From: a virus | DNA: 20,630 nt | Direction: 5' to 3' (one strand) | Virus record (IMG/VR): IMGVR_UViG_3300027906_002504 | Coordinates: 1-20,630 of that record | Shown: in pieces, positions 642 through 20,172 of the stretch | How positions within the stretch are numbered: position 1 is the first letter of the stretch | How the letters are laid out: every line of letters begins with the position of its first letter | Notes under the pieces: model-generated | What the model was told of the DNA's origin: nothing | Database searches by the model: none | What the model saw: only the letters and a program-made list of their open reading frames with translations | Made by a program: the position numbers and the translations under genes

Positions 642-652
642 AGTTGTGTAAT

Positions 653-733: not shown

Positions 734-735
734 TA

Positions 736-900: not shown

Positions 901-1574
901 GCAGTCATGTTTTTGAAGTTAGTGGCAAAATCTATGACATCTTGATCCACTTTGTTTCTGGATATTTTGAGCATTGGCTCTACCCACTCATTACCATTCC
1001 ACTCACGGTCTACAACTCTCCATGTCCACATTACATTTGCTGGTGAAGCAGCAGGATTAGTGGCTAAGAAAGTAGCTATTTGCATAAAGGTTCCTTTATA
1101 AGCTCCTTTACTACCTGTGTCATATATGCCTAAAGCATAGTTAGTATCTCCAAGAGGGTAGTTAAAGCCATCCTCATCTGCTCCTTTACCTTCTGGAATC
1201 AAAAAGATCAGGTCAGCTGCTGCCTTCACTTCAAACTCAGAGTCCTCTTCAATGGCTGCTTTTTCTTCAAGAGTATATGCAACACGCCCACGAATCTGTG
1301 ACCCAAAAGGTGCTTGCTCTCTCCATTTTTTCCTGACATCAACAAAGATAATATCTGTCTCTGATGACGCTGGTATTACTACATATTCCTGGTCTTTAAT
1401 CAGGTCTCCTGTTTCTCCTGCCTTAAACTTTGAACTCGCTTGTCTCAAGGAGTATCTCGGCAGTTGTATGTCTGAACTATCCACAGTGAATTTTGATTCA
1501 TGTGCTAGTTCGTTCTTCTTTACTTCAACAACGTCAGTTGTCGCTTCTTGCGATTTAGCTTTAGTTCTGCTCAT
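897..1574 (-). CDS. Probable single-stranded DNA-binding / replication-associated phage protein (225 aa)
   Basis: The 225-residue product has a charged N-terminal tail (1-28), then a conserved-looking block with I-Q-L-P-R-Y-S-L-R-Q-A-S-S (about 36-48) followed by K-A-G-E-T-G-D. This resembles phage proteins that accompany DUF2800-type nucleases and PolA polymerases and are thought to bind ssDNA. The core (60-225) alternates beta-like and aromatic stretches, with W-T-W-R-V-V-D-R-E-W near 183-192. It lacks the acidic C-terminal tip typical of canonical SSBs. The gene follows the nuclease gene after an A/T-only TTTA-repeat leader and has no Shine-Dalgarno. It overlaps the next gene by 4 nt (ATGA). 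The role is inferred mainly from gene order; it could instead be a recombination or replisome accessory protein. Confidence 0.55.
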   Translation of the reverse strand: MSRTKAKSQEATTDVVEVKKNELAHESKFTVDSSDIQLPRYSLRQASSKFKAGETGDLIKDQEYVVIPASSETDIIFVDVRKKWREQAPFGSQIRGRVAYTLEEKAAIEEDSEFEVKAAADLIFLIPEGKGADEDGFNYPLGDTNYALGIYDTGSKGAYKGTFMQIATFLATNPAASPANVMWTWRVVDREWNGNEWVEPMLKISRNKVDQDVIDFATNFKNMTA

Positions 1575-1575
1575 C

Positions 1576-1607
1576 TATTTTATTTATTTATTTATTTATT
1601 TTATTTA
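1576..1607 (-). repeat. TTTA tetranucleotide repeat forming an A/T-only leader
   Basis: On the plus strand four perfect TTTA units (1583-1598) are flanked on each side by TTTTA, giving 32 bases of pure A/T. On the coding (minus) strand this reads as AAAT-type repeats. The TAA stop of the upstream nuclease gene (1605-1607) lies at one end and the ATG of the next gene (1574) is just past the other, so the repeat is the whole leader of the probable ssDNA-binding gene. It contains no Shine-Dalgarno. Confidence 0.85.
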
Positions 1608-2723
1608 AGTCAATGTGTACCTCTTTTCGGACACATCGACAATTTCTGCTTCGCTAACAGAGCTTAAAAAGTCCTGCTTCGCTTGGCCCTTCTCCCCATC
1701 TGGGGCCCGTTTACTTACGGCAGTTGCAACCTTTTGCAAAGGAAAAGTTGCAAGCGTGAGTAATTCTTCATCTTCCAAGTTGTGCTCTTTAGCTATTTCT
1801 ATAAGCTTTTTGTTGTTATTGCACTTCTTAGTAGCTCCCATAGATTTTAATTTTAAAGAAGGAAACTCATGCCCTTCTTTAGCTTTTGCTATGGCTTTGG
1901 CTTTAATTCTTGTAGCCCAATTAGTAACTATTTTAGCGATTGCCCATAATTGCTCCAATGTTTCCATGTCTTCAGGGTCATCAATATCTGAATCGGGTAT
2001 GGGGTGGTCCGCTACTTTCTGTGCAATTTGTATTGCGATGGCTCCTAAAGCAGGACATTTACTTTCAAAAGCGCAGAACCTACAGTTAACCGTAGGGTTA
2101 ATCTCATCAACAGGGGGTGTGCCATACTCCCATTGAGGCCTGATCCTTTCTCCTTCGAGAATAACCCAAGAAAGCTCTTGAGTCATATCTGGCATTTCTT
2201 CTCTCTTAAACACATCGTGTAATACCTCATTCCTTACAGGCACATAGAACACAAAAGTTATTTCAGTTATGTCTTTAAACTTTTGGAAAGCTCCTAATGC
2301 ATAAGCCTTTGCTTGCCAATTTTCTCTTGGGGAATCAATGTTTGATATACCTGTTTTATAGTCCCCCATGATTGCCTTATCTCCATATAAGATAAGCCTG
2401 TCACAAGTACCCCATGTGCTTGTACCATTAAGCTGAACATGAGTAAGCATTTCATTATGCTCTACATACTCTTCATCCCCAATAATCTCATTCATGAACT
2501 CCTCTTCATCTTTGCAGATCTGCTCATATATTTCTAACTCTTCTTCATTATGCAGAGCGGAAGGGTCTCTTATTTCAAGAGCTTCATGTATACGGGTTCC
2601 TTTCTCAGCAGCTTCATTAGTTCCCCCACGCCCTTTAAATCCTGGGCAAGAGGCCACGTATTTAAGACTTGATGGAGAGAACTCTGCGTGTCCCCTACTG
2701 CCGTGATCTGGTTGATTATCCAT
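1605..2723 (-). CDS. Cas4/RecB-like PD-(D/E)XK nuclease with Fe-S cysteines (DUF2800-like)
   Basis: This 372-aa protein has the layout of a phage Cas4/AddB-type exonuclease. It begins with F-S-P-S-S-L and C26, followed by K-G-T-R-I-H-E (H46). The catalytic core is G-T-C-D-R-L (D108) and G-D-Y-K-T-G (D121, K123), then a Q-A-K-A-Y-A helix (Q137, Y141). Three more cysteines cluster C-terminally as C-x2-C-x5-C (C214, C217, C223); with C26 they could hold a [4Fe-4S] cluster as in Cas4. The C-terminal 140 residues are Lys-rich and helical. DUF2800 nucleases occur in phage replication modules with a PolA polymerase and a SNF2-like helicase, which is the context here. Likely role: end resection during replication or recombination. 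It overlaps the helicase gene by 8 nt and has an ATG start with no clear Shine-Dalgarno. Family call firm, function inferred. Confidence 0.82.
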   Translation of the reverse strand: MDNQPDHGSRGHAEFSPSSLKYVASCPGFKGRGGTNEAAEKGTRIHEALEIRDPSALHNEEELEIYEQICKDEEEFMNEIIGDEEYVEHNEMLTHVQLNGTSTWGTCDRLILYGDKAIMGDYKTGISNIDSPRENWQAKAYALGAFQKFKDITEITFVFYVPVRNEVLHDVFKREEMPDMTQELSWVILEGERIRPQWEYGTPPVDEINPTVNCRFCAFESKCPALGAIAIQIAQKVADHPIPDSDIDDPEDMETLEQLWAIAKIVTNWATRIKAKAIAKAKEGHEFPSLKLKSMGATKKCNNNKKLIEIAKEHNLEDEELLTLATFPLQKVATAVSKRAPDGEKGQAKQDFLSSVSEAEIVDVSEKRYTLT

Positions 2724-4008
2724 GTAGTGTTTTTAGATTTTTAATTTTCTTCTCGATAGACTGCATTACTTTCTCTTCAACAGAGTTAGCTGCTACTAAA
2801 ATCTTTTGTAATGCATCAGACTTAGCTCCATTCCTGTGTATTCTTCCCAATACTTGTAGGTGATTCTTCGCAGAGAAAGAAGGACTTATTAAACTTACCC
2901 TAGGGTATTTTCCTCCAGTATCGTGTAGAGACAATCCAGTACCTCCTGCTGCTATGTTTACTGTAAGCACTCTATCTTTATCCTCTTGAAACCTATCAAT
3001 AACTAATTGTCTTTCAGCCACTGTTTGACCTCCATCAATTCTACCGCAGTCTAGTTTACTACATAAAGTATCTATACTGTCTTTGTAGTTTAAAAACAAA
3101 ACTACAGAGTACCCTTGCTTCACATAATCATTAGCCATTTCTACAAGATCCATAACCTTATAGCTTTCAGCTAGCATCCTAGCTTTAAGTATATTGACTA
3201 TGTCGAATTCTGAATCTTCAACAGTCCCATGTTCAACAAAATGCTCTACAATATCAGGTGTAATTCCAAGATCATCATAAGCTTTAATAATTTTGTTAGG
3301 AGCACTGAATTCTATAGGTTCTACAAAAACCCTATTATTTCTAAAAGAATCAGGGAAGTCTTCAACCGTTAATTTAAACCCCGTCTCTGAATATATTTTT
3401 ACTCTAATTAGCTCAAGCCTTTTACGGCTCATAATTTTCCATGTCTTCCATTGATCTTGCATACACCCATTGGATAACATCCAAGAATACCAACTTCGTT
3501 TACCTCCTTCAGATTTATTTAAACTATGTAATCCTAGCATATACCCAATAGCCCTCATTTCAGTAGGGTCTTCACATGCCGTAGCACTCATACCATGAAC
3601 TTGAAACCCTTGGCATATTAAAGATATTAAAAGCTGTGCATTCTGCGTATATGGTCCTTTTGCTTTATGGATCTCATCCATAAGGATCAATGTGTTCTCA
3701 GGAAGATCCCAAGTCATTATCTTCTTACCCCTCTTGGACATGTAAGCCGTTTTACCTGTCCTAATTTTTTCGTAATTCAATACAAACAAAGGAGTTATAC
3801 CAAACTCATTTAGCTCTCGTTCCCACGAAGGGATAACCGCCTTTGGACATATTACAGCTATTGGCCTTCCTAATTCCTTTGAAACATAACTAGCAACCAC
3901 AGTTTTGCCAGTACCTACACTAGAAGTGTCTATAGTAGACTTTCCTTTATTTAAAGCCTCAATAAAAAAGTCGGCAGCGGTGCTCTGCTTTGGGAATAAT
4001 GCTTTCAT
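2716..4008 (-). CDS. SNF2-like superfamily 2 DNA helicase/translocase
   Basis: A compact two-domain SF2 ATPase of 430 aa. Motif I is V-G-T-G-K-T (31-36), motif II D-E-I-H (111-114), motif III S-A-T (141-143), motif V N-I-A-A-G-G-T-G-L-S-L (351-361) and motif VI Q-V-L-G-R-I-H-R-N-G (385-394). The spacing and the GTGLSL/GRIHRNG signatures fit the small phage SNF2-like (SMARCAL1-like) group rather than a replicative DnaB-type helicase. It should use ATP to move on duplex or branched DNA, perhaps remodelling forks together with the neighbouring nuclease and resolvase. The start ATG at 4008 is preceded by TAAGGTTAAG, which could act as a weak Shine-Dalgarno. The stop overlaps the nuclease start by 8 nt. 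Confidence 0.87.
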   Translation of the reverse strand: MKALFPKQSTAADFFIEALNKGKSTIDTSSVGTGKTVVASYVSKELGRPIAVICPKAVIPSWERELNEFGITPLFVLNYEKIRTGKTAYMSKRGKKIMTWDLPENTLILMDEIHKAKGPYTQNAQLLISLICQGFQVHGMSATACEDPTEMRAIGYMLGLHSLNKSEGGKRSWYSWMLSNGCMQDQWKTWKIMSRKRLELIRVKIYSETGFKLTVEDFPDSFRNNRVFVEPIEFSAPNKIIKAYDDLGITPDIVEHFVEHGTVEDSEFDIVNILKARMLAESYKVMDLVEMANDYVKQGYSVVLFLNYKDSIDTLCSKLDCGRIDGGQTVAERQLVIDRFQEDKDRVLTVNIAAGGTGLSLHDTGGKYPRVSLISPSFSAKNHLQVLGRIHRNGAKSDALQKILVAANSVEEKVMQSIEKKIKNLKTLHG

Positions 4009-4013
4009 TCTTA

Positions 4014-4040
4014 ACCTTAATTACCATTGATAGTTAAGGT
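4014..4040. repeat. 7-bp inverted repeat between resolvase and helicase genes
   Basis: ACCTTAA (4014-4020) and TTAAGGT (4034-4040) form a perfect inverted repeat around a 13-nt spacer. It fills the 41-bp gap upstream of the helicase start. It has no U-tract on either strand, so it is unlikely to be a terminator; it could be an operator-like site or a leader hairpin that partly hides the AAGG upstream of the helicase ATG. Confidence 0.4.
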
Positions 4041-4049
4041 AGTCTAGAA

Positions 4050-4535
4050 TTATTTTCCTCTAATGTACCTTGCTATTAAAAAAGCATCTATCATCCCATC
4101 GTGCGGTTTGCTAGCTCTTTTACTTTTCTGCCAACATTCTTCTGGTACTAAACACTCTGCTTTCCACGCTGCTGCTTCTTTTGTCATGCCTTTTGGTACA
4201 TGCCCTAACATGTTTTTCTGCCATTTATGTACTGAAACACAGCAATGATCCCAGTCTTTGATCTCACATAAAGCTTTTATTTTACCAAAAGACATGGCCA
4301 TTGACCTAACAGCTTGAGAAGATTTAGCATGGTGTAATGGCTCTTCAATAGCGATCATCAGATCACTGAAACACGGATCAAGAGCCAAGATCCATTGATA
4401 AAGTTTGTATGTATCTATTTCTCTTTTCCCTGCTCTCCTTAGTGTAGGCATCACAGTCTTGTCTATAACAGCTCCCGTTGTCCTTGAGATAGCTGTTAAT
4501 CCTCCATCTAGTCCGTTGTCTATTCCTATTATCAT
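4050..4535 (-). CDS. RuvC-like Holliday junction resolvase
   Basis: The 161-aa product has the RNase H-fold signature of RuvC-like resolvases: G-I-D-N-G near the N-terminus (D6), the second-strand acidic motif I-A-I-E-E-P (E64, E65), and the C-terminal H-D-G-M-I-D-A motif (D146, D150). The length is close to that of bacterial RuvC (about 170 aa). Phage members of this family resolve branched DNA before packaging or during recombination. The start at 4535 overlaps the stop of the upstream gene as TAATG, suggesting coupled translation. It sits upstream of the helicase and nuclease genes in the same leftward run. Assignment to the RuvC-like group is good; strict substrate preference cannot be read from the sequence. 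Confidence 0.85.
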   Translation of the reverse strand: MIIGIDNGLDGGLTAISRTTGAVIDKTVMPTLRRAGKREIDTYKLYQWILALDPCFSDLMIAIEEPLHHAKSSQAVRSMAMSFGKIKALCEIKDWDHCCVSVHKWQKNMLGHVPKGMTKEAAAWKAECLVPEECWQKSKRASKPHDGMIDAFLIARYIRGK

Positions 4536-4798
4536 TAATCGGGCAATACAAATAACCTATCTATAACTTTGCAAGTAAGTATTAAACCATCTCCTTCGGA
4601 AGGGATCATAACATCCACGTTTTTAATTAGCATTTGTATGTAAAAAATTTCTCTAGCTGTTTTTGGTATGACTAGGTAAAAGGAACCTACACGTTTTTCT
4701 GCTTTAAACCTAAAGTCTTTATTAGGCAAATCATGCCTAATCATAACTGTTGGGTTATTTACTCTTAATCGTCCCTGAAACATTTGGTGGATCATCAT
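4535..4798 (-). CDS. Unknown protein, 87 aa (69 aa if started internally)
   Basis: I do not recognise this protein. It is basic in its first half (R-H-D-L-P-N-K-D-F-R-F-K-A-E-K-R) and beta-rich in its second (S-F-Y-L-V-I-P, V-D-V-M-I-P, L-I-L-T-C-K-V-I), with no cysteine pairs or catalytic motif. The start is uncertain. ATG 4798 overlaps the preceding gene by 44 nt; an internal ATG at 4744 would give 69 residues beginning M-I-R-H-D-L-P and leave a 10-nt gap, which is more usual for this compact operon. The stop overlaps the RuvC-like start by 1 nt (TAATG). Its place in the run suggests a small replication or recombination accessory protein, by context only. Confidence 0.55.
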   Translation of the reverse strand: MMIHQMFQGRLRVNNPTVMIRHDLPNKDFRFKAEKRVGSFYLVIPKTAREIFYIQMLIKNVDVMIPSEGDGLILTCKVIDRLFVLPD

Positions 4799-5030
4799 TT
4801 AAAAAACAAGGTGTTGCTTCTCCATGATTACTGTTTAAGTATTCAAAAGCATACCTATCTCTAGCTTGTTTATTAGTTAGTCCATAGTCTTCAACAAGTA
4901 TGTTAATAACCATCCTCTTGCTATAGCAAGCTATTGAAGGTTGACCATAGCGTTCTATACTTCCTATGAAGGCGTTTTGTAATCCCTCATACAGTAACAG
5001 TGCATTATCACCGTCTTCTTTTGTAGACAT
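4755..5030 (-). CDS. Unknown protein, 91 aa
   Basis: The ATG at 5030 directly abuts the TAA of the putative small terminase gene (TAAATG), so the two are probably co-translated. The 91-aa product is soluble and mostly helical, with V-I-N-I-L-V-E-D-Y-G-L-T-N-K-Q-A-R-D-R-Y-A-F-E-Y in short helices (about 41-64). This could be a small helical-bundle or HTH-like fold, but no family is recognised. Two scattered cysteines (C35, C75) do not form a motif. No function is assigned. Confidence 0.6.
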   Translation of the reverse strand: MSTKEDGDNALLLYEGLQNAFIGSIERYGQPSIACYSKRMVINILVEDYGLTNKQARDRYAFEYLNSNHGEATPCFLNDDPPNVSGTIKSK

Positions 5031-5534
5031 TTAATCTTCTATTTCTTTTGGATTATCTTCAGCTATTTCAGCTTCTATTATAGGAGACTCTGAAGTAGTC
5101 CCTCTTTTAAGAACTGAAACATCAATTTGTATCTTAGAACTGCCTTTACTTTTATTATCAAACCCTAAATGCTTTAACACTTGATCATCAAGTTTACAGT
5201 ATTTATTTATAAAGCTCATGCTATTCCAATTACCTTCCCGTCTTAGTGTCTCAAGACCTTCATTAAGATCAGAAACAGACTGTGATTGATGTCTATCTAA
5301 GTTATGTATACCAGAAGCTCTTATATTAGCTTGTTCTTCTGCTCTCTTAGCCACAAGCTTATCATGCTTCTGGACACTAAGTTCGTCTCTTGAAGGTAGT
5401 TCTTGTTCTTTTATCCATCTATGTACTGTAGACCTGCCAACATCTAACTCATTAGCAATTGCTCGTGTGCTAAGACCTTCTTTATACAAATCTATAGCTC
5501 TTTGTAATTTTGAATTTTTATTATTATTAGCCAA
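5031..5534 (-). CDS. HTH protein, probable terminase small subunit
   Basis: The 167-aa product opens with a basic tail (N-N-N-K-N-S-K) and a clear helix-turn-helix at about 11-42 (A-I-D-L-Y-K-E-G-L-S-T-R-A-I-A-N-E-L then V-G-R-S-T-V-H-R-W-I-K), as in the homeodomain-like HTH of phage small terminase subunits and resolvases. A charged helical middle and acidic C-terminus (D-N-P-K-E-I-E-D) follow. The start codon appears to be TTG at 5534: an in-frame TAG lies upstream and the next in-frame ATG is about 105 codons further in. It faces the large terminase gene across 44 bp, transcribed away from it. It should bind packaging-site DNA and load the large subunit; a transcription regulator of the divergent region is the main alternative. 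Confidence 0.6.
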   Translation of the reverse strand: MANNNKNSKLQRAIDLYKEGLSTRAIANELDVGRSTVHRWIKEQELPSRDELSVQKHDKLVAKRAEEQANIRASGIHNLDRHQSQSVSDLNEGLETLRREGNWNSMSFINKYCKLDDQVLKHLGFDNKSKGSSKIQIDVSVLKRGTTSESPIIEAEIAEDNPKEIED

Positions 5535-5578: not shown

Positions 5579-7381
5579 ATGACTGAGATAGACGGAAGAT
5601 ACGAACCCATACCAATAGGAATACAAGGTGACCTTCATGTATTTAAACTAGGAGCTCCTTTTGATGTGTGGGTTACGTGCAGTAACAAACTAGAAGCTCT
5701 TTTAATTGGATTTGTTGATGATAAAACAACTAACACAGCAAAAGAATATTACTTTTGGAGACTGTGCGACATTATTTGGAATAGGGAAGATTTATTTGAA
5801 CCTATTATGGTTAGGCATTCTTGGGCAGAAGATATAATTAGAGCTGCTATAGATAATAAATACGTAGCTGTTGGAGGAGCAGCTTCTTCTGGAAAGTCCC
5901 ACACAATGGCTGCGTGGGGTATTTTAAATTGGTTAGCTAAACCTGATGAAACCTTGATCTTGTTAACCTCGACCACTTTACGGGAGGCTAGAAAAAGAAT
6001 TTGGGGTTCAGTGATTAGTTTACTAACGGTAGCTAAAAGTATAATAGATACTCCATTTAAAATAAGGGACTCAATTGGTAACGTTGCTTATGTGGATGAA
6101 AGTGGAACTCTTTTTGAAAGAGCAGGTCTTTCTTTGATAGCTGCTGAAAAGTCTAAGACTAGGGAAGCTGTTGGTAAGTTTATTGGAATAAAACAAAAAA
6201 GAGTATTTTTAATTGCAGACGAGCTTAGTGAACTTAGTGAAGCTATTCTTCAAGCAGGACTGTCTAACTTATCTAAAAACCCTTACTTCTCTTTAGTAGG
6301 TATGAGTAACCCATCTAGTAGGTTTGATGCTTTTGGAGTATGGAGCACTCCTAAAAACAATTGGGAATCTGTAAATGTAGAAATAGATTATACTTGGGAG
6401 ACTAAATGGGGAGGGACATACATACGTTTAGATGGGGAAAGGTCTCCTAATATATTAGCAGGAGAAGATATTTTCCCTTGGCTACCTACGGAAGAGAAAA
6501 TTTCTGAAGATGCAGCTCTTTTAGGAGCTGAGAGCAGGGGGTATATGCGAATGGTAAGGGCTATTTTCTTTGATAGTGATGAAACTGAATCAGTGTACTC
6601 TGAATCAGAGCTCATAGGTTCAGGGTCCATGAGTCAAGTAGATTGGGAGGGTACGCCAACAGCTATAGCAGGGCTCGACCCTGCATTTACTACAAACGGA
6701 GATAGGACTATCTTATATTTTGGTTTAGTGGGCATGGATAAAAAAGGGCAATTCGTTTGTGAATTAGGAGAGGCAGTTCATCTCAATGACGATGCCACCA
6801 ACAAAGCGGTCCCAAGGACGCATCAGATTGCTCATCAAGTAAAAGAGCATTGTCAGAAACGGAATGTGGATTCTTCAAATCTTTCTGTTGATGCAACGGG
6901 AGCTGGTCAACCTTTTGCGGATGTTCTTGCAATGGAAGTTGGTCCTGACATTCTTCGGGTTTCATTTGGAGGTAAGGCTACGGATAAACCTATTAGTTCA
7001 AGAAACAAACTAAAGGGTTCTGACATGTATTTCAACAGGGTAAGTGAGCTTTGGTTTATAGGAAAAGATTTATGTAGAACTAAACAATTATTTGGAGTTT
7101 CCGCAGAGCTAGCAAAAGAAATAACTGCTAGAAATTTTGAGTCTGTTAAAAGTGGATCTAATCTAAAATTAAAACTAGAGTCTAAAATAGAATTTAAATC
7201 AAGGTTTGGGCAGTCTCCCGACTTAGCAGACGCTGCATTTTTGTGTTTAGATTTGGCAAGACAACGTCATGGACTGACTTCAGTTGATCCTCCAGAGAAA
7301 ATAGGGGGCAGTTATTTCAATAAAAGAAAATCTATAAAAGGTTTATCTAAAATTTTAAGTTCAGAAGCGTTAATTGATTGA
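5579..7381 (+). CDS. terL: Terminase large subunit (packaging ATPase and nuclease)
   Basis: The 600-aa protein has both halves of a phage packaging motor. The ATPase has Walker A G-G-A-A-S-S-G-K-S-H (99-108), Walker B F-L-I-A-D-E (210-215, D214 and E215) and a coupling motif G-M-S-N-P-S-S (241-247). The C-terminal RNase H-fold nuclease has A-G-L-D-P-A-F (D367), S-V-D-A-T-G-A (D438) and S-P-D-L-A-D-A-A-F (D548, D551), the expected acidic residues for two-metal cleavage. The length fits the 500-650 aa norm. An extra N-terminal domain of about 80 residues precedes the ATPase. The ATG start has no Shine-Dalgarno. It cuts and pumps DNA into the prohead with the small subunit and portal. It heads the rightward late block, but the portal gene does not follow as it usually does. 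Confidence 0.93.
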   Translation: MTEIDGRYEPIPIGIQGDLHVFKLGAPFDVWVTCSNKLEALLIGFVDDKTTNTAKEYYFWRLCDIIWNREDLFEPIMVRHSWAEDIIRAAIDNKYVAVGGAASSGKSHTMAAWGILNWLAKPDETLILLTSTTLREARKRIWGSVISLLTVAKSIIDTPFKIRDSIGNVAYVDESGTLFERAGLSLIAAEKSKTREAVGKFIGIKQKRVFLIADELSELSEAILQAGLSNLSKNPYFSLVGMSNPSSRFDAFGVWSTPKNNWESVNVEIDYTWETKWGGTYIRLDGERSPNILAGEDIFPWLPTEEKISEDAALLGAESRGYMRMVRAIFFDSDETESVYSESELIGSGSMSQVDWEGTPTAIAGLDPAFTTNGDRTILYFGLVGMDKKGQFVCELGEAVHLNDDATNKAVPRTHQIAHQVKEHCQKRNVDSSNLSVDATGAGQPFADVLAMEVGPDILRVSFGGKATDKPISSRNKLKGSDMYFNRVSELWFIGKDLCRTKQLFGVSAELAKEITARNFESVKSGSNLKLKLESKIEFKSRFGQSPDLADAAFLCLDLARQRHGLTSVDPPEKIGGSYFNKRKSIKGLSKILSSEALID

Positions 7382-10169: not shown

Positions 10170-13100
10170 GTGGCAACAAACATATCTACTTTATCCGCAG
10201 CTCAACCACCTATTGATGATCAGTTAGGTTCATATTATTCTTATCCACAATGGAAAGCAGTATATAGCGAAGAAGATTTTGCTACTGAGCAAGATCTTCC
10301 TAGTTACTTAGATTACTATAGAGGAGAGTTATTAAAAAGAGGAGAGCTTACCAGAGAAAAAGAAGTTGAGATACAAAACTACTATGCTAACTGGGCTTCC
10401 AATGGAGACGAAATTTCTCAAGAAGAGTTTGAAGAGTTAGCTAGTCAGTCAACCGCATACCTTCAAGGCAGTGAAAAAGAAGCAGCGATTGTTTCGAGGA
10501 TATTCCCTGCTTTAGATTGGGGTGGGCTAAACCCTGCACAACAAAATGATTATTTAAATAGAAGTAAGAAAGCTCTTTTATCTGCTGGAGAATTACCTTT
10601 TGCATCTTTAGTTGAGGGAGGTAGAGGAACTGTTCAAGTAGGTAACTATGGGTCTTTAGGAACAAGTCAAGATAGGCAAACTCGTGCAGGAGCAGAAGCT
10701 TTACAAGCCTACTATGCAGGAGCTATAGACCCTAGAGATTTATGGCAAGTGTCTGAAGGACTTTCTCCTTCGGCTATGCCAAACAAAACAAATTTTCAAG
10801 CTGACTTAGATGAACGGGATCTCCAAACTTTTCGTGAAGTATTAGGACGTAAAGATTCAGATTATTCTAGAGCTATTAATAACGCTATTATAAACTCCAT
10901 TGACCTTGAGACTTATAAAGGTAATTGGTTTACAGAAGTATTTGCAGATAGGCCTGAAGATATTACACAGATTATAGTTGATGATCTCCCTGATGAAATA
11001 GTAGCTATACAGCCTATGCTTATTCGAGAGATTGCCCGTAAGCAAGGTCTAGGAGATGCCGAAATTGCAGGGTTAAACTTAGAGAATAACTATAGGTTCT
11101 CTAACGAAAGATTCTTTTCTTTAATTAAAGAGTTAGCGATCAACCACGCTAATAATCAAGGGGTGTTTAAATATGATTCAAAAGACCTTACTAACAATAT
11201 AAGGGTAACTCCATTAGGACTACCTGTGGCACACCCTGATTTAATGCGTAGTAGCTCTTTCAAAGAAGTAGTAGAAGGGGATACAAGATTAAATCAAAAC
11301 CAAAAGAAGAGTCTCCTTGCATCTAGAAAAAACTACATAAGTTCTTTAGAGCCTTATGTAGATGGCCTATTAACTTCAGAGAATTTACAATCTTCTGTAG
11401 GGGAGTCATGGTTAAAAGCAAAGACAGATTCTCCAGCTTCATATGAAAAAGATTATGAAAGTTTTTATGACAGGTTCTTTTCTGAAAAGAAAAACTATGA
11501 CGAATCTGCTAACTGGTGGGGAGGTTTCTTCTCTTCTGTCCCTGAAGCAGTTGTTGGGATGGGCGCTTCTTTAGGAGCTCTGTTAGGGTTCGATAAAGCT
11601 TCAGAACATTTAGCAGAGTATCAGTCTAGTCAATCAAGAAGAAGGCAGTTAGCTTCTTTGTTTGGAGAAGACATGGGGTGGAAGTATGACCTCGCTACTA
11701 TAGTACCTGCGGTAGGAGCAGACTTAGGAGCTAGTTATTTATTAGCAGGACCATTTACCAAGCTAGCTAAAAAACCACAAGTTGCTCAAGCAGCTCAAGC
11801 TACAAAGGCTGGGGTTCGTGACATTAAACATTTTTTAAAGACAGAAACTTCTAACATAATGGCTACCTTTAAAGGAGATAGCCCTGCTAGAATAGCTGCT
11901 AAAAAGAAATTAGCTAGAGACATAATTGATCCTGACAAAACTACTTCCGCTATAAAAGGATTTAATGATCTTACTGCTAGGAGGTATGGTATACAGACTG
12001 CCATATTTACTACGGCTGCAAACAGAGCTGCGGGATCTACGTATGCTACTTTATATAATTCCCAACCAGAGGACATGTCTCATGAAGAGAAACATGATAA
12101 AGCATTAGGGCCAAGCCTTCTTAGAGGAACAGCGACAGGACTTATAACAACAGGTTTTTCTGCATTAGGATTTAAAAGGCCAGGAGCAGGAGGTGTTGAA
12201 GATATTATTTCTAAAGGGGTTTCATTCGGATCATTTAAAAAGGCCTTAAATAGCCTTCCTGAGAAAGCATTTACAGCTAACTCAAGTACTCTAAAGGCTG
12301 CTTTAAAAGGTCCTTTAAAGGATACCATAACAAAAGCTATTATTAATAATAAGCAGAGTTTAATTGGCACTACTTTGAGAGGGGCTTTTTATGAAGGAGC
12401 CGAAGAAAGTATCGATGAGTTTGTAGGCTCTTACATTGAAAGTATTTCTATGGATGAGTTCGTCCCTATGAGGGAGCGGATTAACCAAGCGGTGTATGCA
12501 GGAACTTTAGGTGGTGTGTTAGGTGGAGCAGTTAGTCTAGGTGCTGAAACTAAGTTTGGATTAGCAGGTATGCAAAGGCTAGCTGAAAGTAGATCTATAA
12601 AACGTAACCAAAAAGTTGCAGAAGACGAAGCTTTAAGGCAGCTCTCTGATGAAGTTGAAGCTGCAGGAGCTCCCCTAGTTGCACAAGAGTTAGAGAATGC
12701 TGCTAATGCTCCAGAAGAATTAGACACTCCAGAAGAAGTAGATGCTCCAGAAGAATTAGACACTCCAGAAGAAGTAGATGCTCCAGAAGTAGATGCTCCA
12801 GAAGAAACTCCCGTAGCTCCTATAGATATATTTACCCCTAAGTTTTCTGGTAAAGAAGTCCCTAAAGAAACCGTTGAAAATTATTTAATGGGTTGGGTTC
12901 CGACAGGAGTAACTCAAGGGTCTGATATTAGGGTTGATTTTAAAAAGTTCGAGGGTAGTGAGGCTAACCCAATGAGGGTAGTTGCTTTAAATGCTAGAGG
13001 GGATTCCCCAATGTTAGTTTGGCAAGTTGATTCAGAAGCTTTAAGCCAAAAAATAAATTCTCAAAAGGGAAATAAGAAAGATGCTTTAGATAGCTACATT

Positions 13101-16100
13101 GGACACGAGCTAATACATTTATCAGAACTTGAATATGCAAGAGACCTGTGGCGAAACTCAGGTCAAGAGACAAACTTTGTTAACTTTTATGATAAATATA
13201 CCGCAGATATTTACGGTGAGTTAACTAACTCTGAAGCAGGTCTTGATGAAATTAGGAAGTCTGTCTCTCAGTACTTAGGTATTGAAGAGAGTGAGGTCAT
13301 TCTCCCAGACGAAGGACTATCTCAAATGACTAAAGGAGAGATAGTTTCTGAGTTCACTAGGCAGTTTGCCGAAAGAGCTAACGCAGGGTCTGTTTCTGAT
13401 GCTTACTTCCAAGGTTTGAAAAAGAAAGACAAGCGTCTTTTCTTAGAGAATTTACAAGGGCTAGTTGATAAAGTTAGGGGTACGGTAGGAGACACCACTA
13501 ATAATGACGCTTATGATTTTATACAAAAATCTACATTAGGGTTCTTAGCAAAAGTAGAAGATAGGTATGCGAGCTTTTTCTTGGACTCTGTCCAAGGACG
13601 TTTCCTAGATTTTAATACTAAGGTGGAACAAAGGGAAGAAGCACTAGCTCAAGAAGTTCCTGAAGAAACTCCAGCAGTTAAAGTACCAGAAGAAGTAGAT
13701 GTTAAATGGAAGGAGGCTCTTGAAGAGTACGGTGAAAGCACCAAACTATCAGGTAAACCAATGACCGAAGAAAGAGCACTTAGAAAAGAGTTAGCTCTTA
13801 TACAAGTATTCGAATCTTACATTGTAGCAGATAGAAACCTAATGGGGTTTTCTTCTAAGAAAGGCGAGACCTTACAAGACTTACCAATGTTCTTAAACCA
13901 AAAGCAATTAGAGCTATTAAAAGGTTGGTTTGAAGGAGGGAAAGAATCTTTTCCAGAAGAGTTGAGGTTATCTAAATATGAAGACACTGCAATACGGACT
14001 AACACACTTGGTCAAATAAAAGAAATTGCACAAGAGATTGAGTCAACTTCAGGATTTTTATTGGCAACACATCAGTTACTCAACCCTGAATTAGGCTTAA
14101 CGGAAAACTTCGTATTGAGCAACGCACCTAGTGAAGTTTTTAATGTGGCTACAGAGGTAGATGGAGAAGTAGTAAACCACATCCCCCCTCCTGTTAACAT
14201 GTCTCCCATGACTTGGATGGAGGTAGAGGCTATGGATTCTTTTGAAGAGATTGCTCCTGTAATGAAAGAACTTACTGAAGAACTTTCAGCAAGGGCTAAG
14301 AAGATGGGGCTCACACTAGAAGTTAAGAACGTGTCTTATGGAGGTTCTCTATCAGGACGTAGTGATGTACTTAATGTTTCTGATGGTAAGGTTATAGTAA
14401 ATATATATCAACTTGCTAAACAGTATAATAGTTTTCATCGCCCTGACCAGTTATTAGGGCCTTCTCTTAAAGCATCAATGGCTATAAGGAATGCAGAAGA
14501 TAAAGTTATTAATGATATAGATTTTGAAACTGTTGCTTCTAATATAGATGATGCACAACTCATAGCTTTTCTATCTCAAGAGATCAGCCCTTATCTGAAC
14601 CTTGATCCAAAGACTGTAGAAGACTTAACCAAGGATGGTGTTTTAAATATTGAAGAAGGAGGAAAAGTTCTTTCTAACTATGTAAAAAGTTTTGTTGCTA
14701 AAGGAAGAGAGAGTCAAATCCCTAGAGATGAGTTCTTAATTATAAACTCTTTCGCTAGTTTAAAAGATGCAGCTATTCAAGCACTTGAAAAAACTATAGT
14801 AGAAGTAAGTAAAATTGAAAGTCTCCTAGAAGGAACGACTCAAGGTACAAAGGTTAAAGTATACCAATCATCAGATCAAGATACAAGGGTCACGGATCAA
14901 GAGGCAGCAGGTAAAGACATGTTACTCTCTAACTATCACTCAGGTAACTTATTAGGTTATTTAAAACAAGGGAGGATAGCCCCACTAATTAAAGAAATTT
15001 CATTCGATACGGGAGATGTTGAAGCGTCTATAGACATGGTGAGAAATATGGTAGCAGAAAGTTCTGTTCCAGAAGAAAGCAAACCTGTTCCAGAAAAAGA
15101 AGAAGTAGCTACTTCAGAAGAAGCTACTCCAGAAAAAGAAAAAGAAGAAGAAGAAGCTACCCCAGAAGATCCTGAGTTAGCTGAAATGGTTAATGATATA
15201 AACACTTCTTTGGAAATACCTTTAGTATCTTATGGGTTTGATGGTCGGTATACTACGACTGAAGAGAGCGCTCCTCTTTCTTTTGTAGGGAAGATTTGGA
15301 AATGGCTATCTAGTAATAAAGATCTTAGATGGCAAAGAGAAGTAGAGAACAGAGACAGTTATAGCACCGCAATCAATGAAGAAAATAAAATGATTGTCGG
15401 AGCTTTGAACAGGATTGTCAAAAAAGATTTCGGTGGTTGGACTCCTCGTCTAAAGAAATTAGTATCTCAAGCTTCTGGTAACACTGCGGGTACAACCCTA
15501 CCTGAAGGAGAACTAGAACAGTTTAAACAAGAAAGAGATTTAGAACTAGATGAAGCAAAGGCTTCTTATACTAGTCCTGAAAACCTTAAAGAAAAACTAG
15601 AGAGTGCTTATGATAACTTTGAGAAAAAGATTGCAGATAGGAAGGGTGAACTAATAGCCTTGAATAAAGAGTCTGTTAACCAAGCTTACAATGAGATTGC
15701 AAAGACATCTCCTGAACTTGTGAAAGAGTTAAGAGATGTGCGTAGAAAGATCACGGCTAACGGAAGAGTAGTGGGGATGAAGCTACAGGAGGTAGACTCT
15801 GACAAATATGAGGATGGTCCTATGAGGTTTTCTGAACAAGAAGGATTTTACCTTAGTAGATCTTACAGGATATTTAAAGATCCTAAATGGAGAGCTGATA
15901 TTTTAAACTTGGAGAATAAACAATTTAAATTAATAAGAGAAGAAGCTGCCAGAGCAGTCCTTGACGAGGAGATAGCTAAAGCTATTGATGCGGAAATAGA
16001 TTCAAGAAACAAACTAGCAATGGACGAAGGGGATATGTCTTGGCTAGAAACTACAGAGATAGAGAAGAGACAGATTGTAGATGAGGAGTTAGGGATATCA

Positions 16101-18443
16101 AAAAGTTTTCAAGGAAACAAATTAGACTTAGAATCTTTTTATGTAGATCACTTCAGTAAGTATGGTCCTGATGAGCAGACCGATATTCTTACAGGCAAAC
16201 AACAACTAAGCGAAGCAGTAAGGAAAGGACTTGGAGAGATAGAGTCCCCCAAATATAATTTAGTGCAGACACTTACAAACGTTAGGTCATTCGGGAATTC
16301 ATTAGCATTAGACTTAAACCTAATGAAACTAGGCAGACCTAAAGATGCTGACATATCGGAGTATTGGATACTTAATTTAAAGGAATACGATAAGCTAAAG
16401 AAGGATAACCCTGAAGAAGCTAGGAGATATTCTCACATACATAGGACTAAAACTATTAACGGAGAAAGTGTTAACATAAAAACTAACCCGTTGAGTCCTC
16501 TTAGAAATGCAGAAGCTCAGTATTATGTAGATGATAATTTTTATAATGCTCTTGCAGAAAGAGAAGCGTTTGTTTCTTCAAACAAACTAACAGATAAAGC
16601 TGCTGGTAGAATAAATAAATTTCTAAAGAAAGCGGTTGGTCTTTCCCTTGGATTTAAAACTTTAGGTAGTAGTACTTATTATTCCCGTAACATATTTGGG
16701 TCTGCTATTTTCTTTCCTTGGTCACAAGGATTCAGCCCTGGAAAAACAATAAAGAATCTTGGTAAAGAATTAAAAAGATTACGTAATCCTCAAGAGGTTA
16801 ATGAATATGTTTTAAACCTATACCGTAGAGGAATGCTAGAGCCTGAGTTTACTGTTAGTATGTTGAGTGACATGCTATCTGGGGAGGTTACTGCTGACTC
16901 TCTTGAAGCGGAGACCTTTAAATTATATGATGACATTCAGAAAGATAATAATCTTCCTCCCATTGAAGAAGGTAATCCTGATGCTTTACTTAAAACTTTA
17001 GTTGAAGCAGGGAAGAAGGGTAACTTATACATTAAAGATAATGTCCTTAAGAAGCTAACTAAGCTTTCAATGATGACTGATTCTTTCTTTAAGATATCTT
17101 ACTTTGAGAATGAAGTTAAAAACTTACAAGAGGCTAGACAATATGAGAAAGATTTAGGTACAGGTGGTAGCTATATTAACTTAACAGATTCTGAAATAGA
17201 ATCTTTAGCTGCAGATAAAGTTAAAAAGACTGCGCAGTTTTATTCTCAGTCTTCTGTATTAACAGATGCTTTTAATAAGTCTTCTGCTGCTTTAGCAGTA
17301 GCTCCTTATGTTAGGTTCAGAATGGAGGTAGCTAGAATAATGGTTAATAGCATGGTGCTAGCTAGGAGAGAGATGAAAGATAGTAATCCTGTTATCAGAG
17401 CACGGGGAAAGAAACGTGCTGCTGGTTTAGCTACGGTAGGTTTATTCTCTGCAACAGGATCTATAATTGCGGAGCCTGTTTTAGTAACACTATTAATAGG
17501 ACTTCAACTTGCAGATGAAGATGCTAGTGATCTTGATGATGAAACAAGACAAGCTTTAAGGCTAGCTTCTCCTTCTTATTTAAGAGACCACACTTTCTTA
17601 TACAGTAAAAAGAATGGGCAGTACCAGTCATGGGATTTAACTTACCTTAACCCTTATGCTATGTGGCTAGACGGTTTCTCTATAGCAGGTAGAAGTATTA
17701 ACAACGGGGAAAGTCTTCCTGCTGCTATGGGAAGGTTTGGTTTAAGCATGCTTGGAACTCCTCTTGTTGAAGGACAGATAGCTACGAATGCTTTCTTCAA
17801 TAGTATTATAATGAATAGGAATTCTAAAGGGGAGACTTTATATTATGAGAATGATAGTCCTATAAACAAAGCTACAAAGAGCGTTAGTAATTTTATTCAA
17901 GAAGCTTATGGTCCTCCTTCTTTTAAAAGACTTAATGAAAATATAAAAGGATTAGCTACGGGTGAATCTGAATACACAATAGGTAAACTAATACGAGATG
18001 AGTTCTCGCCAATCAAACCTTATGATGTTAAACCACAACAAGTTTTGTATGGGTTAACTAGATCTTTAAGGCAAGGCAAACTTAGAAACTCTAAGCTAAT
18101 CAATAGAGTACTCACAACTAGACCTTTGTCTGAATCTGAAGTTAATCAGATAGCGGATGAGACAATTAGGATATCTAAAATAACTCAGTTGATTGCATCT
18201 AAACATTTAACTAAACTAATTAACATTGGAGTAGACCCTGCAATAATTACAGAAGAGGTTGAAAAACTTTATGGTAAAGGAAGCTCGGCTTCAATCTTTG
18301 CGGGACAAGGTATGGTACAAATGCCTAGCGCTAGAACAATGGGGGCAGCTTCTCAAAGACCTGAAGTTGCAGAGAGAATCCAGCAGTACATAGATAGAAT
18401 AGAAGAGAAGACTAACAATGGTTTGATTAATCTTTATGATTAA
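10170..18443 (+). CDS. Giant phage polyvalent/internal virion protein with zincin-type protease motif (2,757 aa)
   Basis: Starts at GTG 10170; an in-frame TAA at 10158 excludes a longer form. Layout by residue: 1-420 helical, soluble; 430-560 hydrophobic Gly/Ala segments; 610-830 a block with R-A-A-G-S-T-Y-A, S-H-E-E-K-H-D-K-A-L-G, the E-G-A-E-E motif near 743 and a Gly-rich turn, typical of phage large polyvalent proteins; 847-882 an acidic Pro/Glu/Asp repeat linker; 900-1120 a zincin-like domain with H-E-L-I-H (H979, E980, H983) and possible third ligand E1057 or E1061; 1633-1672 a second acidic linker; 1690-2130 charged helices; 2150-2757 a C-terminal region with hydrophobic helices (about 2153-2189 and 2420-2449) resembling LPD38-type phage domains. 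It is probably packed in the capsid and ejected; its protease may mature itself, other proteins or act in the host. No RNA polymerase motif was seen. The gene alone takes 40% of the window. Confidence 0.72.
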   Translation: MATNISTLSAAQPPIDDQLGSYYSYPQWKAVYSEEDFATEQDLPSYLDYYRGELLKRGELTREKEVEIQNYYANWASNGDEISQEEFEELASQSTAYLQGSEKEAAIVSRIFPALDWGGLNPAQQNDYLNRSKKALLSAGELPFASLVEGGRGTVQVGNYGSLGTSQDRQTRAGAEALQAYYAGAIDPRDLWQVSEGLSPSAMPNKTNFQADLDERDLQTFREVLGRKDSDYSRAINNAIINSIDLETYKGNWFTEVFADRPEDITQIIVDDLPDEIVAIQPMLIREIARKQGLGDAEIAGLNLENNYRFSNERFFSLIKELAINHANNQGVFKYDSKDLTNNIRVTPLGLPVAHPDLMRSSSFKEVVEGDTRLNQNQKKSLLASRKNYISSLEPYVDGLLTSENLQSSVGESWLKAKTDSPASYEKDYESFYDRFFSEKKNYDESANWWGGFFSSVPEAVVGMGASLGALLGFDKASEHLAEYQSSQSRRRQLASLFGEDMGWKYDLATIVPAVGADLGASYLLAGPFTKLAKKPQVAQAAQATKAGVRDIKHFLKTETSNIMATFKGDSPARIAAKKKLARDIIDPDKTTSAIKGFNDLTARRYGIQTAIFTTAANRAAGSTYATLYNSQPEDMSHEEKHDKALGPSLLRGTATGLITTGFSALGFKRPGAGGVEDIISKGVSFGSFKKALNSLPEKAFTANSSTLKAALKGPLKDTITKAIINNKQSLIGTTLRGAFYEGAEESIDEFVGSYIESISMDEFVPMRERINQAVYAGTLGGVLGGAVSLGAETKFGLAGMQRLAESRSIKRNQKVAEDEALRQLSDEVEAAGAPLVAQELENAANAPEELDTPEEVDAPEELDTPEEVDAPEVDAPEETPVAPIDIFTPKFSGKEVPKETVENYLMGWVPTGVTQGSDIRVDFKKFEGSEANPMRVVALNARGDSPMLVWQVDSEALSQKINSQKGNKKDALDSYIGHELIHLSELEYARDLWRNSGQETNFVNFYDKYTADIYGELTNSEAGLDEIRKSVSQYLGIEESEVILPDEGLSQMTKGEIVSEFTRQFAERANAGSVSDAYFQGLKKKDKRLFLENLQGLVDKVRGTVGDTTNNDAYDFIQKSTLGFLAKVEDRYASFFLDSVQGRFLDFNTKVEQREEALAQEVPEETPAVKVPEEVDVKWKEALEEYGESTKLSGKPMTEERALRKELALIQVFESYIVADRNLMGFSSKKGETLQDLPMFLNQKQLELLKGWFEGGKESFPEELRLSKYEDTAIRTNTLGQIKEIAQEIESTSGFLLATHQLLNPELGLTENFVLSNAPSEVFNVATEVDGEVVNHIPPPVNMSPMTWMEVEAMDSFEEIAPVMKELTEELSARAKKMGLTLEVKNVSYGGSLSGRSDVLNVSDGKVIVNIYQLAKQYNSFHRPDQLLGPSLKASMAIRNAEDKVINDIDFETVASNIDDAQLIAFLSQEISPYLNLDPKTVEDLTKDGVLNIEEGGKVLSNYVKSFVAKGRESQIPRDEFLIINSFASLKDAAIQALEKTIVEVSKIESLLEGTTQGTKVKVYQSSDQDTRVTDQEAAGKDMLLSNYHSGNLLGYLKQGRIAPLIKEISFDTGDVEASIDMVRNMVAESSVPEESKPVPEKEEVATSEEATPEKEKEEEEATPEDPELAEMVNDINTSLEIPLVSYGFDGRYTTTEESAPLSFVGKIWKWLSSNKDLRWQREVENRDSYSTAINEENKMIVGALNRIVKKDFGGWTPRLKKLVSQASGNTAGTTLPEGELEQFKQERDLELDEAKASYTSPENLKEKLESAYDNFEKKIADRKGELIALNKESVNQAYNEIAKTSPELVKELRDVRRKITANGRVVGMKLQEVDSDKYEDGPMRFSEQEGFYLSRSYRIFKDPKWRADILNLENKQFKLIREEAARAVLDEEIAKAIDAEIDSRNKLAMDEGDMSWLETTEIEKRQIVDEELGISKSFQGNKLDLESFYVDHFSKYGPDEQTDILTGKQQLSEAVRKGLGEIESPKYNLVQTLTNVRSFGNSLALDLNLMKLGRPKDADISEYWILNLKEYDKLKKDNPEEARRYSHIHRTKTINGESVNIKTNPLSPLRNAEAQYYVDDNFYNALAEREAFVSSNKLTDKAAGRINKFLKKAVGLSLGFKTLGSSTYYSRNIFGSAIFFPWSQGFSPGKTIKNLGKELKRLRNPQEVNEYVLNLYRRGMLEPEFTVSMLSDMLSGEVTADSLEAETFKLYDDIQKDNNLPPIEEGNPDALLKTLVEAGKKGNLYIKDNVLKKLTKLSMMTDSFFKISYFENEVKNLQEARQYEKDLGTGGSYINLTDSEIESLAADKVKKTAQFYSQSSVLTDAFNKSSAALAVAPYVRFRMEVARIMVNSMVLARREMKDSNPVIRARGKKRAAGLATVGLFSATGSIIAEPVLVTLLIGLQLADEDASDLDDETRQALRLASPSYLRDHTFLYSKKNGQYQSWDLTYLNPYAMWLDGFSIAGRSINNGESLPAAMGRFGLSMLGTPLVEGQIATNAFFNSIIMNRNSKGETLYYENDSPINKATKSVSNFIQEAYGPPSFKRLNENIKGLATGESEYTIGKLIRDEFSPIKPYDVKPQQVLYGLTRSLRQGKLRNSKLINRVLTTRPLSESEVNQIADETIRISKITQLIASKHLTKLINIGVDPAIITEEVEKLYGKGSSASIFAGQGMVQMPSARTMGAASQRPEVAERIQQYIDRIEEKTNNGLINLYD
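12709..12815 (+). repeat. Tandem 36-bp (12-aa) repeats in the giant gene
   Basis: Two near-identical 36-bp units encode A-P-E-E-L-D-T-P-E-E-V-D twice in a row, followed by shortened forms (A-P-E-V-D, A-P-E-E-T-P). The DNA is repeated as well as the protein, which points to recent slippage or unequal recombination. The product is an acidic, proline-rich flexible linker between the hydrophobic N-terminal part and the zincin-like domain. Confidence 0.85.
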
Positions 18444-18807: not shown

Positions 18808-18981
18808 TTAAAGTTCTTTTCTTTTATAGGTTTTCATTATCTTATGATCTAATATCTTTAAGATCATACCAACTGATTTCATACTAGGTATATTCTCCAT
18901 CGTCCAATCAGGATGATTGATAAACATAATGGTATACCTACCATCTTCTTCTTCTATAACAATGGCTTTCTGTTTACTCAT
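18808..18981 (-). CDS. Unknown protein, 57 aa
   Basis: A 57-codon frame starts at ATG 18981, overlapping the end of the methyltransferase gene by 8 nt (ATGAGTAA), so it is probably translated by coupling. The product has a short beta-like start (K-A-I-V-I-E-E-E-D-G-R-Y-T-I-M-F-I), a W-T-M-E-N-I-P-S-M turn and a basic C-terminus (K-I-M-K-T-Y-K-R-K-E-L). No motif identifies a function. Position and coupling suggest it belongs to the methyltransferase transcript. Confidence 0.6.
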   Translation of the reverse strand: MSKQKAIVIEEEDGRYTIMFINHPDWTMENIPSMKSVGMILKILDHKIMKTYKRKEL

Positions 18982-20170
18982 GTAACCTTTCTGCTAAAGT
19001 TATAAAGGCTTTCGCTGCTACTTGGTTTACAACACCATTGCCCAACAGTCTTAATCGATCCACTCGATTGGCAATTGAGTCCACTTGACGGGAAGCCCCA
19101 TCAACTGCTCGACCCATGACGGATTGAGCCTGTTTGGATTGCTCACTTGTCGAGTGATCCTCTTCTGCTTGCTGTTCTTTCCTGGGTGTCCCTTGTGGTC
19201 GCTCGCTGACGGAGTTCCCCACTGTTCTGGATTCTTCCCAGTCGTATTGTTCTTGGTTCTGACAGGCTGGCCAGACCGTTTCTCTGTAGCATAGTCTAAC
19301 CGCCCGTTCGATCTGTCCTTCCCATCCTTCCGTATTACTGTCGGACCTGAACCCTTGTGGTCGCTCGCTGTTGGAGTCGGCCAGTTCTGCATAGCTATTG
19401 CTTCCCTCAGTTGAATGTTCCCCCACTTGCCCTCTTGTATCTGCTTCAACCGCATCCCTCCTGACACCTCTGCAAGTGTTGGAGTCGGCCAGTTCTCTTG
19501 CTTGTATATCTCCACTGCCTTTGGATCTATTTGTTCCCTCAAGTTCGCAGGTTTCTTTCTGCCCTTGCGTGATGTGTTTGCTTGCCTCCTCAAGGCTTCG
19601 TCTGATCGTGGAGGTAAGGTGTCCATTGTGTTTGGAGTACCCCATAATGAACACTCTCTTTCTCTGGTGCGGAGCTCCGACTTCAGACGCTGAGAATACT
19701 CCTGCCGTTGCTTGGTAACCCAACTCTTCCAAGCTCCGAAGGACATACTTGAGAACACTTTCTCCATCGGTTGTTTTGCAGGAGATAATTCCCTCAACAT
19801 TTTCGAGAAAGATAACTGAGGGTCTGCACTCTCTGATTCCTTCAAGGATGTAGGGGAAGATATGTCTTGGGTCTTCTGTCCCTTTTCTTTTCCCTGCTCC
19901 ACTGAATGGTTGGCAGGGGAATCCGCCAGACAAGATGTCCACGCATCCACGAAACTTTCGGAATGGGAACTCTTTAAGGTTCGAGAACACAGGAGTCGGA
20001 GGAATTTTACCCTCTTCCATCTTCGCAACCAAGTTGGCGATAGCGTAGGCTTCGATCTCCACATAAGCGACCTCTCGCACATTTGGGAGAACTCTTCTGA
20101 TTCCAATTCCGATCCCTTCGTATCCACTACAGAGGGACAGGTGTCTGATATGTTGTTTGGTAATATCCAC
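18974..20170 (-). CDS. dcm: DNA (cytosine-5) methyltransferase, phage Dcm type
   Basis: The 398-aa enzyme has the m5C methyltransferase motifs in standard order: motif I L-C-S-G-Y-E-G-I-G (13-21, SAM binding), motif IV G-G-F-P-C-Q-P-F-S (82-90, nucleophile C86), motif VI E-N-V-E-G (123-127), motif VIII Q-R-K-R-V-F (169-174), and motifs IX-X R-L-R-L-L-G-N-G-V-V ending in a helix (372-395). The target-recognition region (about 180-365) is hydrophilic, with repeats of E-L-A-D-S-N and S-E-R-P-Q-G. The start is GTG 20170, since an in-frame TAG lies close upstream; this GTG overlaps an ATG belonging to another frame (ATGTG). The DNA is much more GC-rich than its neighbours. The enzyme would methylate phage or host DNA, for example to evade restriction; no partner nuclease is seen. 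A second long frame overlaps almost all of it. Confidence 0.92.
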   Translation of the reverse strand: MDITKQHIRHLSLCSGYEGIGIGIRRVLPNVREVAYVEIEAYAIANLVAKMEEGKIPPTPVFSNLKEFPFRKFRGCVDILSGGFPCQPFSGAGKRKGTEDPRHIFPYILEGIRECRPSVIFLENVEGIISCKTTDGESVLKYVLRSLEELGYQATAGVFSASEVGAPHQRKRVFIMGYSKHNGHLTSTIRRSLEEASKHITQGQKETCELEGTNRSKGSGDIQARELADSNTCRGVRRDAVEADTRGQVGEHSTEGSNSYAELADSNSERPQGFRSDSNTEGWEGQIERAVRLCYRETVWPACQNQEQYDWEESRTVGNSVSERPQGTPRKEQQAEEDHSTSEQSKQAQSVMGRAVDGASRQVDSIANRVDRLRLLGNGVVNQVAAKAFITLAERLHE

Positions 20171-20172
20171 AT
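19051..20172 (-). CDS. Overlapping frame in the methyltransferase gene, methyltransferase-associated WPTP/LNPxWVExLMG protein (up to 373 aa)
   Basis: A second frame on the same strand is open for 373 codons from ATG 20172 to a stop at 19051. Its second half has features of a real protein: C-S-L-W-G-T-P (174-180), N-W-P-T-P-T (227-232), N-W-P-T-P-T-A-S-D-H-K-G-S-G (263-276), Q-W-G-T-P-S-A-S-D-H-K-G (317-328), and R-L-N-P-S-W-V-E-Q-L-M-G-L-P (348-361). I recognise these from phage proteins annotated as methyltransferase-associated. The first 115-120 residues look like a shadow of methyltransferase motifs I-IV and have no motifs of their own, so translation may instead start internally, for example at M125 (19800) or M136 (19767). 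Function is unknown; a partner altering target recognition is one idea. Openness alone is weak evidence here because other frames are also long in this GC-rich segment; the motifs are the main support. Confidence 0.6.
   Translation of the reverse strand: MWILPNNISDTCPSVVDTKGSELESEEFSQMCERSLMWRSKPTLSPTWLRRWKRVKFLRLLCSRTLKSSHSESFVDAWTSCLADSPANHSVEQGKEKGQKTQDISSPTSLKESESADPQLSFSKMLRELSPAKQPMEKVFSSMSFGAWKSWVTKQRQEYSQRLKSELRTRERECSLWGTPNTMDTLPPRSDEALRRQANTSRKGRKKPANLREQIDPKAVEIYKQENWPTPTLAEVSGGMRLKQIQEGKWGNIQLREAIAMQNWPTPTASDHKGSGPTVIRKDGKDRSNGRLDYATEKRSGQPVRTKNNTTGKNPEQWGTPSASDHKGHPGKNSKQKRITRQVSNPNRLNPSWVEQLMGLPVKWTQLPIEWID
19190..19496. repeat. In-phase direct repeats in the methyltransferase variable region
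   Basis: On the plus strand cccttgtggtcgctcgctg occurs at 19190-19208 and 19352-19370 (162 bp apart), and tgttggagtcggccagttct occurs at 19369-19388 and 19477-19496 (108 bp apart). Both spacings are multiples of three, so each repeat keeps phase in both frames: on the minus strand one frame gives the E-L-A-D-S-N and S-E-R-P-Q-G units and the other gives the W-P/G-T-P-x-x-S-D units. Confidence 0.85.

Follow-up and report, generated by a model that had tools for sequence, protein, structure and literature searches.

M.EcoHK31I is a YGGCCR enzyme, the small subunit of which is encoded in another frame inside the gene of the large subunit. Together with M.AquI, it is a natural two-polypeptide C5 methyltransferase (PMC3404938). 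The larger subunit of M.EcoHK31I carries motifs I-VIII and X and the smaller one motif IX, the recognition domain having been placed in the large subunit; in M.AquI, one chain has motifs I-VIII, and the other combines the recognition part with motif IX (PMC3404938). Tandem recognition cassettes are described for the multispecific methyltransferases of the Bacillus phages SPR, phi3T, SPbeta and H2, among other places in the literature cited in PMC8936443.

We analysed a stretch of 20,630 bases from an IMG/VR virus record (the window), in which two frames, here called alpha and beta, overlap on the minus strand across the whole of beta. Alpha (18974-20170, minus strand) is a cytosine-C5 methyltransferase frame of 398 codons, and beta (19051-20172, minus strand) is nested in it and stop-free over 373 codons. 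Their start codons overlap in the sequence ATGTG (20168-20172, minus strand), where the ATG (20172-20170) is the start of beta and the GTG located 2 nt further (20170-20168) that of alpha. The sequence-only reading had described two real-looking overlapping frames, and this observation was confirmed: beta has no stop in its 373 codons, 16 stops interrupt the remaining frame of that strand, and the openness of beta exceeds chance in the permutation test described below. Elsewhere in the window, phage replication genes (DNA polymerase, PD-(D/E)XK exonuclease, helicase and RuvC-like resolvase) lie on the minus strand at 1-5534, and the plus strand encodes a terminase large subunit at 5579-7381; a single ORF of 2757 codons (10170-18443, plus strand), possibly a giant virion protein, adjoins virion-type genes.

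The overlapping starts are conserved. Among 89 distinct family loci, beta begins with ATG in 84 and with GTG in 5, and the alpha GTG is found at +2 from the beta start in 88; L048 has lost the alpha GTG and retained the beta ATG, its alpha starting elsewhere. A recognisable Shine-Dalgarno sequence before ATGTG is absent in about half of the family loci, and no good one was found upstream of ATGTG in the window. Every nested beta occupies the +1 frame of alpha, except at frame-disrupted loci such as L047, L161 and L178. In L047 (2007-3120), a close relative, a frameshift in the module region, from either decay or a sequencing error, disrupts both frames, and in L161 and L178, which are Paenibacillus-type prophage copies, motif IX is now in the alpha ORF and motif X in another frame, apparently through small indels.

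Alpha matched PF00145 (E 2.7e-38) and phrog_363, a family named 'DNA methyltransferase' (E 1.9e-52). Based on motif positions and an alignment with HhaI, we observed on the minus strand C5-methyltransferase motifs I (HLSLCSGYEGIG, 20108-20143), IV (GGFPCQPFSGAGKRKG, 19880-19927, with PCQ and the catalytic Cys), VI (FLENVEGI, 19787-19810, with ENV), VIII (GAPHQRKRVFIM, 19643-19678) and X (DRLRLLGNGVVNQVA, 19016-19060, residues 371-385). Alpha had initially been read as a complete methyltransferase (I-X), but we did not detect motif IX in its frame; a IX-like stretch occurs in the beta (+1) frame only. In motif X, the window has GNGVVNQVA where relatives have GNGVVPQVA or similar, and this replacement of Pro by Asn was seen in the window only, among the sequences aligned. 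In the AF2 model of alpha, residues ~5-214 and 377-398 are folded, while residues 215-376 (19043-19528, minus strand), which read through the beta modules, have a pLDDT below 50 and are predicted to be disordered. By Foldseek, the model aligns to M.HhaI over ~173 columns, roughly half of HhaI, and the match is restricted to the large domain. According to both the motif scan and the AF2 model, motif IX and an ordered recognition domain are thus missing from the alpha chain. The LADSN-type strings, formerly assigned to a methyltransferase variable region, are indeed present in alpha, but these and the NSERPQG strings are mostly read-through of beta modules.

Beta matched phrog_1008, named 'DNA methyltransferase' (E 1.1e-22, residues 65-369), and both halves match this family when taken separately. 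No Pfam family reached the threshold with beta; a VapE-like match (E 0.0028, under the cut-off) was rejected as noise. Beta is made of a leader, then four W-x-T-P modules, then motif IX. The leader (residues 1-176, ~176 aa) overlies the catalytic half and is weakly conserved apart from its openness; with it, beta reaches 373 aa and is not the small partner that had been supposed. The motif positions first given were exact: the W-x-T-P units start at residues 177, 228, 264 and 318, SDHKG is present twice, in units 3 and 4, and the closing LNPSWVEQLMGLP, which is motif IX-like, is at residues 349-361. On the minus strand, module 1 (WGTPNTMD...NLREQIDPKAVEIYKQEN, residues 177-227) corresponds to 19492-19644, module 2 (WPTPTLAEVSGG...LREAIAMQN, residues 228-263) to 19384-19491, module 3 (WPTPTASDHKGSGPTVIRKDGKDRSNGRLDYATE..., residues 264-317) to 19222-19383 and module 4 (WGTPSASDHKG..., residues 318-348) to 19129-19221; the cassette of module 3 is also found in beta of the E. 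coli phage K1G. The stretch LNPSWVEQLMGLPVKWT (residues 349-365, 19078-19128, minus strand) was assigned as motif IX-like by its position and pattern, and in the single-chain relatives L190 and L225 such a stretch sits between the modules and motif X. With a profile of the IX-X region, the sole matches were weak ones to DRM2-type methyltransferases of plants (E 0.02).

W-x-T-P opens each module, and most modules are 30-55 aa long. Most beta proteins contain 1-6 of them (1-8 by the pattern used, the higher counts including a few false leader units). Module types were defined as strict communities; single-linkage clustering merged all modules. These types recur in differing order and combination among phages. 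For module 3 of the window, counterparts with 61-80% identity occur in phages of E. coli and Erwinia; the catalytic half of the window is just 30-37% identical to those of these phages, which looks like cassette exchange. The tandem modules are most likely exchangeable target-recognition domains. AF2 modelled beta poorly (mean pLDDT 56, the surroundings of module 1 being better modelled) and a Foldseek search with the model matched no known fold, so that the proposed role in target recognition is drawn from the position of the modules in the chain and from their modularity.

We then considered whether beta could be open by chance. Beta is stop-free in all 89 distinct family loci, with a length of 305-502 aa. 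Most of these loci were retrieved, ranked by match, with a beta query and a pattern including the beta start; in the 11 loci retrieved by an alpha query (L001-L010 and L036, several of them near-identical), beta is likewise open. For the permutation test, the alpha protein was kept fixed, synonymous codons were permuted and beta stops were counted, in the window and in 18 relatives. For the first part of the window the expectation was 2.6 stops (P 0.025) and for the second part 2.8 (P 0.004), and none was observed. None was observed in any of the 18 relatives either, with 1.6-4.3 expected over motifs I-VIII and 0.6-6.4 beyond, even if for the second part of L049 the absence of stops has P 0.42. 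Stops thus do not appear in beta among relatives, as the sequence-only reading implied.

The substitution pattern indicates which frame is under selection. In this overlap, the second codon position of beta is the third of alpha, and the wobble position of beta is the first of alpha. In the part ending with motif VIII, per-site differences amount to 0.22, 0.15 and 0.35 at the first, second and third positions of alpha, a pattern typical of the alpha frame, with an alpha identity of 0.743. In the module part (70-80% bin) they become 0.38/0.14/0.16, and the amino acid identity is 0.755 for beta, 0.558 for alpha and 0.490 for the unused third frame, alpha coming near the latter. The same inversion past motif VIII was found in the E. 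coli K1G-like and the Paenibacillus-like groups. As a control, the module/IX/X part of the fused L190 and L225 gave 8/5/48 at positions 1/2/3, that is, normal third-position divergence. Selection acts on alpha up to motif VIII, switches to beta just past it, over the modules and motif IX, and returns to alpha at motif X; over the modules, alpha is merely held open. The constraint expected at methyltransferase synonymous sites is consequently seen in the module part, where alpha third positions change little and alpha first positions most. The idea of a conserved dual-coding pair stands insofar as both frames are open and conserved, but not as a constraint on both frames over the whole length. 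Synonymous divergence was also compared with that of L011-L034 (0.35 vs 0.435 at ~76% amino acid identity). These loci, with motif IX in the alpha frame, had been taken as plain single-chain controls and were rejected as such, their module part evolving in +1 too; the control being partly dual-coded, this comparison is just supportive.

The relatives distribute the same parts in several ways. In type A, to which K1G and Paenibacillus phages belong along with the window, motifs I-VIII and X are in alpha and the modules and motif IX in beta. In type B (L011-L034), alpha has motifs I-VIII, IX and X, and a nested +1 ORF of 141-221 aa contains modules only (W/L-P-T-P); this ORF begins inside the gene and ends at motif IX, and the same frame upstream is closed by 3-7 stops. 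L011-L034 represent a second phage methyltransferase family. In type C (L159, L187, L191, L192, L208 and L229), alpha has motifs I-VIII and the second chain the modules with motifs IX and X. The separately annotated genes gp76 (phrog_363) and gp75 (phrog_1008, E 3e-93) of mycobacteriophage Camperdownii are also of this type; they share just 182 nt and most of gp75 lies outside the alpha-like gp76. In type D (L081, L082, L092, L094, L097, L128 and L131), alpha is shut by many stops right after motif VIII, beta is intact and motif X is found in a separate ORF of 110-167 codons in the alpha frame, a possible three-piece methyltransferase. In type E (L190 and L225; Pelosinus), motifs I-VIII, W-P-T-P modules, IX and X are in one chain, the C-terminal half of which is homologous to beta. 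The L225 chain matches both phrog_363 and phrog_1008; as its initial beta module can still be read in +1, the fusion looks secondary. The partner frame therefore has homologues that are not simply overlaps of methyltransferase genes, namely Camperdownii gp75 and the L225 single chain. The motif-only classifier left some loci incomplete, in part owing to a motif pattern that was too narrow.

Taken together, these data lead us to propose, with high confidence, that the locus encodes one cytosine-C5 methyltransferase split in two subunits, both encoded by the same DNA but each in its own frame. The domain for AdoMet binding and catalysis (motifs I-VIII plus X) would come from alpha, and the target-recognition modules and motif IX from beta. 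Since ATGTG offers two overlapping starts in one ribosome-binding region, ribosomes there could make either chain, and such a shared initiation step is supported by the conserved ATGTG and the open leader. Alpha would pass through the beta modules solely to reach motif X, this stretch acting as disordered filler. As split, fused and nested forms of the same enzyme exist, we infer that the two chains assemble into a single enzyme in which the modules pick the sites. As exchangeable recognition domains, the modules would allow the phage to change or combine the sequences that it methylates, probably to escape host restriction. The translation of beta, its function in target recognition and the anti-restriction purpose are likewise inferred.

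The main rival is programmed frameshifting, in which ribosomes would translate alpha to motif VIII, shift by +1 into beta and produce one fused chain, beta not being initiated separately. The natural in-frame fusions L190 and L225 and the confinement of the frame switch to one place just past motif VIII speak for it. However, such a mechanism requires no open beta before motif VIII, and the leader, which is open in every one of the 89 loci against 1.6-4.3 expected stops each, would be left unexplained. In addition, L048 retains the beta ATG although its alpha has a different start, the frame upstream of the internally starting nested ORF of L011-L034 is closed by 3-7 stops, and motif X of the L081 type would require a third piece or a second shift. 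We consequently judge frameshifting improbable.

Even less probable is that beta is a separate regulator or accessory protein and alpha alone the active methyltransferase. The failure of beta to match a known fold or a Pfam family at threshold would fit such a protein, but alpha would then have to work with neither an ordered target-recognition domain nor motif IX, and in single-chain relatives the same modules and motif IX hold the position of the recognition domain. Finally, beta could be untranslated, its openness being due to chance or to the repeated sequence of alpha (LADSN repeats). A low-stop composition does permit zero stops in one sequence, as the P values of the window's first part and of L049 illustrate; yet the module part conserves beta and not alpha, alpha is closed with beta intact in seven loci, and beta-type genes largely outside alpha exist. 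Unless it is an artefact, the frame-specific substitution pattern refutes this explanation, to which we give practically no credit; together with the 89 open loci, it also rules out an assembly error.

The two-frame organisation is widespread. IMG/VR relatives retain both frames, one viral scan gave 549 matching stretches, K1G beta was matched by 218 phage records and, with a Paenibacillus-phage beta as query, beta-type loci were also found in prophages of Bacillota and Bacteroidota. Both frames are annotated as overlapping genes in K1G (C-specific methylase / Mte8-like) and Bloom, and fKuEco01 also lists both; many records list a single gene at the locus. Among the annotations examined, none calls phrog_363 and phrog_1008 the two-frame halves of one enzyme, and we found no description of such a two-frame layout in the open-licence literature searched. 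We lean, with some reserve, towards a wider reading: many genes of phages and prophages annotated as a single-chain 'DNA cytosine methyltransferase' would form a large class without an in-frame recognition domain, the recognition half being a second protein overprinted in +1. In this reading, the cassettes are specificity units that move between phages, and the relatives distribute motifs IX and X between the chains in at least five ways, the possible three-piece enzyme among them.

Very long same-strand overlaps in which each frame is a different half of one enzyme are rare and instructive: this one would show how the halves of an enzyme can be separated and redistributed between frames while the gene is retained. 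Many phage methyltransferases annotated as single-chain would be inactive if cloned recoded in one frame, and specificity prediction would miss their recognition part. As candidate recognition cassettes, the modules would constitute a naturally occurring library, and the nested, split, three-piece and fused variants make split-enzyme evolution directly testable.

Compared with the known systems by motif content, the window fits the motif split of M.EcoHK31I, with I-VIII and X in one chain and IX in an overlapping second frame, the frame layout of M.EcoHK31I being taken from general background. Unlike M.EcoHK31I, where the recognition domain is in the large subunit, the window has its modules in beta; these modules are multiple and shuffled, and beta is wholly nested from a shared ATGTG. 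M.AquI, as far as motifs IX and X in the second chain are concerned, is resembled by L159, L187, L191, L192, L208, L229 and Camperdownii gp76/gp75; the window differs from it by motif X being in alpha and by the second gene being nested in the first. Like the phage C5 methyltransferases of SPR, phi3T, SPbeta and H2, that of the window would have several tandem recognition cassettes but, whereas those enzymes are single-chain, its putative cassettes lie in a separate nested frame. What appears to be new is the overlap of all of beta, the shared start, a selection that changes frame within the gene, the shuffled nested modules and the spread of this organisation.
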